Of a stretch of DNA of 64,000 bases, positions 50,340-51,770 are shown piece by piece. Source of the DNA: Prochlorococcus marinus bv. HNLC2 (GTDB lineage: Bacteria; Cyanobacteriota; Cyanobacteriia; PCC-6307; Cyanobiaceae); assembly GCA_000218745.1 (NCBI GenBank), contig GL947595.1, positions 1,230,399 to 1,294,398 of the forward strand. The letters are read 5' to 3'. The translations under genes were made by a program, and so were the position numbers. The notes under the pieces are model-generated. The model ran no database searches, was not told the origin of the DNA, and was given only the letters and a program-made list of their open reading frames with translations. How positions within the stretch are numbered: position 1 is the stretch's first letter; the number at the start of each line of letters is the position of its first letter.

Positions 50340-51199
50340 ATGATAAATAGTAAAACATCTTTCCTTGCTTTAATTGGTAATCCAGTAGAACATTCTTTGT
50401 CGCCAATAATGCATAATGCAGCGATAAAATTTTTAGAGTTAGATCTAGTCTATATAGCAATACCGTGTAAAAATGAAGATTTCCAAATAGTTATAAATGC
50501 ATTAAAAAGAATTAATTGTAAAGGTTTGAATATTACAATCCCATTTAAAGAAAAAGCTTTTAATTTATGTGATGAGATTTCTCCAATCGCAAAAAAAATT
50601 AAAGCGATAAATACCTTAAAAGTAAATCAAAATTTTGAATGGAGTGGAACTAACACTGATGTCGATGGTTTCATTGATCCAATAAAACACCTAAATTTGA
50701 TAGGGAAAAAATCTATCGTGATAGGCTCTGGTGGAGCGGCAAGATCTGCTGTTCAAGGATTAACTGATTTAAAATTATCAGAAATTTTAGTAATCTCTAG
50801 AAATGAATCAAATTTAAAAAAATTTTTAAATGACTTCAAAAATTTTAAATCTGTCAAAGGATTTGTAGCAAATTATAAAAACGTGACGATTTAATTAACC
50901 AGGCAGATTTAATTATTAATACAACGCCAATCGGGATGAAAAACTATAGTGCAGATTATGATGAATTACCTTTTGGTAAAGAGTTTTGGCGCTCTTTAAA
51001 TTCTAAATCGATAGTATACGATTTAGTCTACAATCCAAGAGTTACAAAACTTTTAAGATTTTCTGAAAACAAAGGTTGTCAGATTATTGATGGATCAGAA
51101 ATGTTAGTTGCCCAAGGAGCAAAGTCACTCTCTTATTGGACAGGTATAAAGGATATCCCTATCGAAATAATGAAACAAGCTATCAAAAAATATTTATGA
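50340..51199 (+). pseudogene. aroE: Shikimate dehydrogenase, frame broken once as sequenced
   Basis: AroE reduces 3-dehydroshikimate to shikimate with NADPH. The 5' piece has IGNPVEHSLSPIMHNAA, the catalytic lysine in ITIPFKEKA and the NADPH motif VIGSGGAARSAVQGL, then stops at 50894 after NYKNVTI. The other frame continues DDLINQADLIINTTPIGM and ends with VYDLVYNPRVTKLL, MLVAQGAKSLSYWTG and a stop at 51199. One base is missing near 50883 (for example GTGAC for GTTGAC). Adding it gives 286 residues, normal for the family. An indel error is the likely cause. Confidence 0.93.
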
Positions 51200-51252
51200 A
51201 TGATTTAGAATTTGATGAGAAAAAATTTTTTCTAAATAAAACCACAATATTG

Positions 51253-51258
51253 TATTCT
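51253..51258 (+). promoter_or_regulatory. Possible -10 element of rpsF
   Basis: TATTCT resembles a -10 hexamer. A start about seven bases downstream would place the RNA 5' end just before the nested hairpin at 51269-51311. No good -35 is seen. Confidence 0.3.
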
Positions 51259-51268
51259 AATAAGTGTA

Positions 51269-51311
51269 CAGACGCTCATGAAATATTATGAGCCTATTAT
51301 GACCTAGTCTG
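51269..51311 (+). promoter_or_regulatory. Candidate structured mRNA leader of rpsF
   Basis: CAGAC (51269-51273) is followed without a gap by GCTCAT (51274-51279). GCTCAT pairs with ATGAGC (51288-51293) around an 8-base loop, and CAGAC pairs with GTCTG (51307-51311), leaving a 13-base bulge on the 3' side. The structure ends three bases before the rpsF ATG, so it could hide the ribosome-binding site. Ribosomal protein S6 (with S18) is known in other bacteria to bind a bulged hairpin in its own mRNA leader. The hallmark CCG of that motif is not evident here, so kinship is uncertain. Confidence 0.4.
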
Positions 51312-51314
51312 AAA

Positions 51315-51770
51315 ATGCTTGATTCATCAATTTATTACGAAACAATGTATATTCTTCGCCCAGATATTGCGGAAGAAGAAGTCACTAAACATATAGAAAA
51401 ATACAACAAAACATTAGAAAATAATGGAGGAAAAGTTCTAGATAGTCAAATGAGAGGAAAAAGAAGATTGGCTTATCCAATTGCAAAACATAGAGAAGGT
51501 ATATATGTTCAACTTAGTCATCAAGGAGATGGACAACACATAGCAAAAATTGAAAAGGCAATGCGTCTTAGTGAGGATGTTATTAGATATTTAACTATCA
51601 AGCAGGAGGGCCCTTTGCCTACTCCAAAGCCTTCAAATAAAAACGCAAGTTCCTCGGATAATAAAGAAACCAGCAAAACTATTTCTGAATCAGAACCGAA
51701 TTCAAATGTAGAGAAAGATATTGAAAAAGTTGAAACAAAAAATCCTGCTAGTGTATCTGAAGAAAACTAA
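51315..51770 (+). CDS. rpsF: 30S ribosomal protein S6
   Basis: A 151-residue S6. The core [16 protein letters not shown] and the [20 protein letters not shown] stretch with a following VIRYLTIK strand are typical. The C-terminal 45 residues are a Ser/Glu/Lys-rich low-complexity tail, longer than in Escherichia coli and common in cyanobacteria. S6 pairs with S18 in the small subunit. Its stop at 51768-51770 abuts the converging argG stop with no bases between. Confidence 0.97.

Follow-up and report, generated by a model that had tools for sequence, protein, structure and literature searches.

Does the hairpin that lies directly ahead of rpsF, the gene for ribosomal protein S6, in Prochlorococcus marinus bv. 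HNLC2 serve as a leader through which S6 regulates its own synthesis? No photosynthetic cell is more abundant in the ocean than Prochlorococcus, which has kept few regulators. In E. coli, S6:S18 represses translation of rpsF by way of a leader structure, and a pair of cytosines in the RNA and residues K60 and R63 of S18 matter for this control, as described in PMC4647458. Across phyla, cytosines in the bulge of such leaders are described as mimicking C719 and C720 of 16S rRNA, and the leaders carry a CCG box in operons that mostly contain rpsF with rpsR (PMC4647458, PMC10931766). PMC7247131 describes the S6:S18 leader as very widespread and reports from Chlorobi a distinct leader that is unlike the rRNA site. 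The predicted fold, conservation, anatomy and position of the Prochlorococcus hairpin, together with the residues kept in S18, suggest that it is quite probably the widespread S6:S18 translational autorepressor leader in diverged form. The original prediction of a possible S6 autoregulatory leader thus gains support from conservation, anatomy and some covariation, with binding of S6:S18 putative.

The window, that is, the whole stretch of DNA that was analyzed, is 64 kb long. Features of the site are as follows, in which P1 and P2 are the outer and inner stems, a prime marks a 3' strand, and A1 is an alignment of leaders described below.

51253..51258, + strand: -10-like hexamer TATTCT (TAT..T without variation across 60 distinct genus leaders)
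51269..51273, + strand: 5' strand of P1, CAGAC (sequence, fold, alignment A1)
51274..51279, + strand: 5' strand of P2, GCTCAT (sequence, fold, alignment A1)
51288..51293, + strand: 3' strand of P2, ATGAGC (sequence, fold, alignment A1)
51294..51306, + strand: 3' bulge CTATTATGACCTA, 13 nt, proposed S6:S18 contact (bulge of 10-13 nt in 61 leaders of the genus)
51303..51304, + strand: cytosine pair 2 nt before P1', matching in position the CC that S18 contacts in the E. coli leader (C in both columns in 92/92 A1 rows)
51307..51311, + strand: 3' strand of P1, GTCTG, without a Shine-Dalgarno sequence (sequence, alignment A1)
51315..51770, + strand: rpsF, ribosomal protein S6 (open reading frame; Pfam Ribosomal_S6, E 6.1e-30)

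The hairpin is present as originally predicted, with eleven contiguous bases facing ATGAGC and GTCTG, a 13-base bulge, and an end three bases before the ATG. The unbroken 5' strand CAGACGCTCAT (CAGAC plus GCTCAT, 51269-51279) pairs with both 3' strands, and an AAA spacer separates P1' from the rpsF ATG at 51315. In the window's genome, GA/TT adds two more pairs to P2, one being G-U, and the loop is 4 nt long. The predicted fold of the 48-nt core is exactly P1, P2 and the 3' bulge, at -12.8 kcal/mol, and none of 200 dinucleotide shuffles folds as well (z -4.74). When longer flanks are included (91 nt), the folding excess is modest, with z -1.91 and 10/200 shuffles as good.

This arrangement is rare in its surroundings. 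We scanned both strands of the window for P1 and P2 of at least 5 bp that are contiguous on the 5' side, a G-C pair closing P2, a 3' bulge of 10-13 nt, and CC 2 nt before P1'. The scan was modelled on the E. coli plan and drawn up post hoc, with the site already known; its sole match is the rpsF leader. Twenty one-strand shuffles gave a mean of 0 sites with Watson-Crick pairs and 0.95 when G-U pairs were allowed, so only the Watson-Crick version of the scan exceeds chance. Model R1, a picocyanobacterial covariance model with promoter flank whose training includes the window site, has a single match at E <=10 in the window's own genome (150 of 342 candidates scored), again immediately ahead of the S6 start codon.

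To place the hairpin in a wider context, rpsF was located in 217 of the 266 genomes of the genus, and leaders were sampled from the genus (61), from other genera of the family (70), and from 40 of the 104 class genomes outside the family. The original prediction required that the stems be kept in close relatives, and they are. A strict descriptor of the E. coli plan, framed after leaders of the genus had already been inspected, fits 61/61 of them (3/3 plus 58/58) versus 37/1220 shuffles. Bulges in these leaders are 10-13 nt long, near the 12 nt of E. coli. In the rest of the family, the strict descriptor fits 10/70 leaders, no better than shuffles (173/1400), in our opinion because of P1 mismatches and longer leaders. 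A relaxed descriptor with CC at -2 accommodates 31 of the 35 A1 loci from outside the genus, as counted by eye and without a shuffle control.

Alignment A1 contains 92 distinct leaders of 96 eligible, 57 from the genus and 35 from other genera of the family, so that the hairpin can be aligned well beyond the genus; it omits 35 family leaders that are longer or unlike the others, as well as the 40 class leaders. The CC pair 2 nt before P1' is invariant (92/92 rows; the first P1' base is a gap in L058-L060). The base after CC is U in 75/92 rows and C in 17/92, and the G of the CCG box is not found. The inner four pairs of P2 form in every row, and the stem is kept across species while the apical loop differs in length and letters. 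P1 is less regular: its second pair fails in 33/92 rows and its outermost pair in 61/92. Among 12 leaders that were folded individually, three (L049, L074 and L088) lacked the motif, and L074 and L088 are among those left out of A1. In a separate named collection, which overlaps the main genome set and for which we took the best 80 of 402 loci, nearly all Prochlorococcus, the motif pattern fits 78 of these 80. The pattern misses L187 and L188, whose S6 is nearest to that of the window among these best 80 of 402; both have the hairpin, with a longer bulge.

Some family leaders look different. In genus g40 (L070, L078, L080 and L111), inspection by eye revealed a longer bulge and a seeming extra CCG...CGG hairpin before GUCC and P1'. 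By eye, no S6:S18 motif is recognizable before rpsF in L098, L099 and L101-L106 (genera g17, g31, g36 and g38), and these leaders gave no match to R3, a core model of the picocyanobacterial form, at E 1. L101 does fit the strict descriptor, probably by chance. The motif has possibly been lost or replaced before rpsF in these four genera.

The stems also show the compensating base changes that the original prediction called for, on few independent events. Counting outward, pair four of P1 reads A-U in 57 of the 92 A1 rows and C-G in 35, a switch that tracks one clade boundary. Changes between U-A and C-G and between A-U and U-A occur in single to few rows in P2, along with wobble changes. In A1, 88.6% of the paired cells can pair, versus 83.8% in shuffles and at most 35.1% in slid versions of the alignment, and both-sided changes occupy 48 cells versus 17.9 in shuffles. 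The covariation score of A1 is 0.130; controls slid by +/-2 columns reach 0.095-0.098. Two of five covariation measures are not clearly above shuffles, and the number of pairs with a both-sided change is not clearly beyond them (48/500 on A1, 224/500 on A5). RNAalifold, applied to A1, predicts only the four inner P2 pairs.

We then compared the leader with the known S6:S18 leaders. The Rfam model for these, RF02893 (RpsF_leader; gathering threshold 37 bits), finds the E. coli rpsF leader, our positive control, with 110 bits and misses the leader in the window, so that the Rfam search suggested in the original prediction came out negative. Between 51190 and 51340, the model is absent from 14 matches at E 10, low scores that we took as chance, and a search at gathering scores returned nothing credible. 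RF02893 is also over the cut-off in 0/41 cyanobacterial genomes under strict filters and misses 20/20 other cyanobacterial leaders. The model is narrow, as only one of 14 control genomes, E. coli, exceeds the cut-off; Bacillus subtilis, a described binder, falls below it.

The E. coli leader reads UCCUU-GCCUCC ... GGAGGC-UGAAUAAUCCGU-AAGGA, with a 12-nt 3' bulge and a Shine-Dalgarno sequence inside P1'. Like it, the Prochlorococcus hairpin stands ahead of rpsF, has P1 and P2 contiguous on the 5' side, closes P2 with a G-C pair and ends near the start codon. Exactly 2 nt separate its CC from P1', the spacing of E. coli (UCCGU|AAGGA), in a bulge of 13 nt rather than 12, and, as in leaders across phyla, the bulge cytosines are flanked by a stem and a hairpin. 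A bulge of a different kind had been anticipated, and this expectation was not really borne out: the CC pair keeps its place. Divergence from the known leader is seen in the third base, which is U not G (U or C in A1), and in P1, whose letters differ from UCCUU/AAGGA at all five pairs. Other differences from the known leaders are a score below the Rfam threshold, a P1' without a Shine-Dalgarno sequence, and an rpsF gene without rpsR, which lies far away. The Chlorobi leader is likewise lineage-specific and ahead of rpsF; by description it does not resemble the rRNA site, whereas the present leader keeps the CC anatomy.

Leaders of other cyanobacteria resemble that of E. coli more closely. Outside the family, 35/40 have CCnn followed by AAGG (GAGG in one) within 32 nt of the start, and 32/40 also have CCTTG within 150 nt upstream, giving UCCUUGCUU ... 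AAGCCAUUUGUCCAUAAGGA, close to E. coli; the same patterns occur in 43 and 10 of 2000 shuffles, respectively. The base after CC is A in 33 of the 35 and G in two. An alignment of 26 class leaders (A2) was rejected because P2' was misplaced, as bulge lengths differ. We therefore used ten class leaders picked for an 11-nt bulge (A3), a choice that favours agreement inside A3; 99.1% of its cells pair, and both-sided changes occur in four P2 pairs and in none of P1. Model R2, built from A3, matches 24 of 30 other class leaders at the leader. In 50 kb of E. coli, its sole match is the verified rpsF leader (E 0.0045, a rough value), with P1, P2 and CC aligned. The motif in most class leaders and this match indicate that cyanobacteria of the class outside the family mostly carry a predicted E. 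coli-type S6:S18 leader.

Covariance models do not join the two cyanobacterial forms. R1 matched none of 24 class leaders or E. coli and has a single match, in L090, a family leader that A1 omits. Searched against 37 family loci, R2 matched no leader and gave two antisense matches off the leader (L010 and L024), and R3, run against the 40 class leaders and E. coli, gave no match at the leader that exceeds chance (the best, E 0.087, falls elsewhere). The bridge between the forms is therefore anatomy, not a model match. Two family leaders left out of A1, L090 (E 0.0032) and L093 (E 0.11), look intermediate. The proposed link between the picocyanobacterial and class forms thus depends on position, anatomy, the CC-NN-P1' spacing and these intermediate-looking leaders.

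The other partner, S18, keeps KRAR (K60, R61 and R63 in E. coli numbering) in 20/20 cyanobacteria. Its gene, rpsR, is in a locus without S6 in all 20 (loci of ~3.15 kb; L177 and L267-L285). The L33 gene (rpmG) adjoins it in 18/20 loci, with no L33 match in the other two. In the window's own genome, rpsF and rpsR are about 0.8 Mb apart; in E. coli, they are near each other with priB between. We found no second copy of the motif near rpsR at E 1 in the 20 loci, and any feedback would be confined to S6. At the matching site, the 16S rRNA of the own genome has ACACCAGTGGCG. We considered whether the third base of CCn follows the 16S rRNA and dropped this, as leader and 16S letters disagree. The 16S pattern was found in 37/65 genomes, and all 22 of the family have ACCAG (confirmed as 16S in the own genome only), yet A1 leaders have CCU or CCC; in G529, G531, G604 and G613, the pattern is ACCGG and the leader has CCA.

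How might such a leader act? We infer that rpsF transcription starts a few nucleotides ahead of the hairpin. The -10-like hexamer TATTCT noted in the original prediction is present, and its T, A, T and last T do not vary at this position across 60 distinct leaders from the genus; a promoter consensus scan did not call it. With TAT..T 11-16 nt before P1, the 5' end of the mRNA would lie shortly ahead of the hairpin. An in-frame TGA at 51300-51302, inside the leader, excludes an rpsF-frame start upstream of the hairpin. The chosen start codon is 3-7 nt past P1' in 61/61 leaders of the genus. A Shine-Dalgarno-like 4-mer within 20 nt of the start occurs in 0/61 leaders of the genus, 2/35 other A1 leaders, 7/35 family leaders left out of A1, and 39/40 leaders outside the family.

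In the mechanism that we propose, S6:S18 heterodimers in excess of free 16S rRNA sites would bind the leader, and S18, through its equivalents of K60 and R63, would grip the CC pair in the bulge and clamp P1 and P2 shut. The clamped hairpin would then keep the 30S subunit off the AUG just past P1'. In most other cyanobacteria examined, P1' is itself the Shine-Dalgarno sequence (AAGGA), just as E. coli has it. The picocyanobacteria of A1, those of the genus included, differ in both P1 strands and lack the Shine-Dalgarno sequence, and repression there would depend on a direct block of the start region. Given the rarity of Shine-Dalgarno sequences near the start in these leaders, occlusion of the start site by bound S6:S18, rather than Shine-Dalgarno sequestration, is the most likely mechanism on the sequence evidence. 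A bolder proposal is that the leader is a Shine-Dalgarno-free operator of rpsF only, read by a heterodimer from separate loci, such that S18 supply sets S6 translation; this is conceivable, and we lean slightly against it.

The reading as an S6:S18 leader has to be weighed against others. The hairpin could act in cis at rpsF without binding S6:S18, for example as an mRNA-stability or start-site hairpin, or it could have another ligand (S6 alone, S18 alone or an RNase). Contact with S6:S18 is a prediction, the second P1 pair is mismatched in a third of A1 rows, and, with S18 encoded elsewhere, one would not first think of a co-encoded heterodimer as the ligand. However, an invariant CC at the E. 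coli position is unexpected for a generic stability hairpin, and both the anatomy common to the S6:S18-binding family and the KRAR kept in S18 make this alternative unlikely. We consider it quite improbable that an independent picocyanobacterial S6 leader converged on the same shape, although a separate S6:S18 leader is described in Chlorobi besides the widespread one (PMC7247131), the window's P1 is unlike that of E. coli at every pair, and no covariance-model match joins the two cyanobacterial forms. The same gene, the contiguous 5' strand, the G-C closing P2, the CC-NN-P1' spacing and the intermediate look of L090 and L093 argue instead for common descent with the widespread leader. A transcription terminator or attenuator, or a chance palindrome, might be suspected from a strong hairpin in an AT-rich intergenic stretch, but is very improbable, because 51150-51330 contains 0 terminator-like sites, the stem is conserved while the loop varies, and the Watson-Crick anatomy occurs once in 64 kb.

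Among the matches listed in our literature searches, no paper deals with the rpsF leader of a cyanobacterium. Other ribosomal leaders are named in two screens for RNAs of cyanobacteria, and rpsF, rps6 and S18 are absent from the main text of both (PMC1242208, PMC2662882). Cyanobacteria may figure in the alignments of Matelska 2013 or Fu 2014. The anatomy of the S6:S18 leader and its CC are known; apparently new is a picocyanobacterial form, a putative binder, that scores below the Rfam threshold and lacks the G of CCG. Rfam's present model misses the cyanobacterial forms examined here. If the S6:S18 reading is correct, autoregulation by ribosomal proteins reaches Prochlorococcus, and the CC bulge that the protein grips can persist in an RNA operator even where the Shine-Dalgarno sequence, hidden in leaders elsewhere, has been lost. 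With rpsR apart from rpsF, the leader would also offer a simple system for studying a two-part repressor with one part under its own control.

Just upstream of rpsF, aroE appears as two open reading frames in different frames, 50340-50894 and 50936-51199. The two halves share one frame in L002, L003, L005 and L010, so a frameshift, either real or an assembly error, lies within 50340-51199 here.
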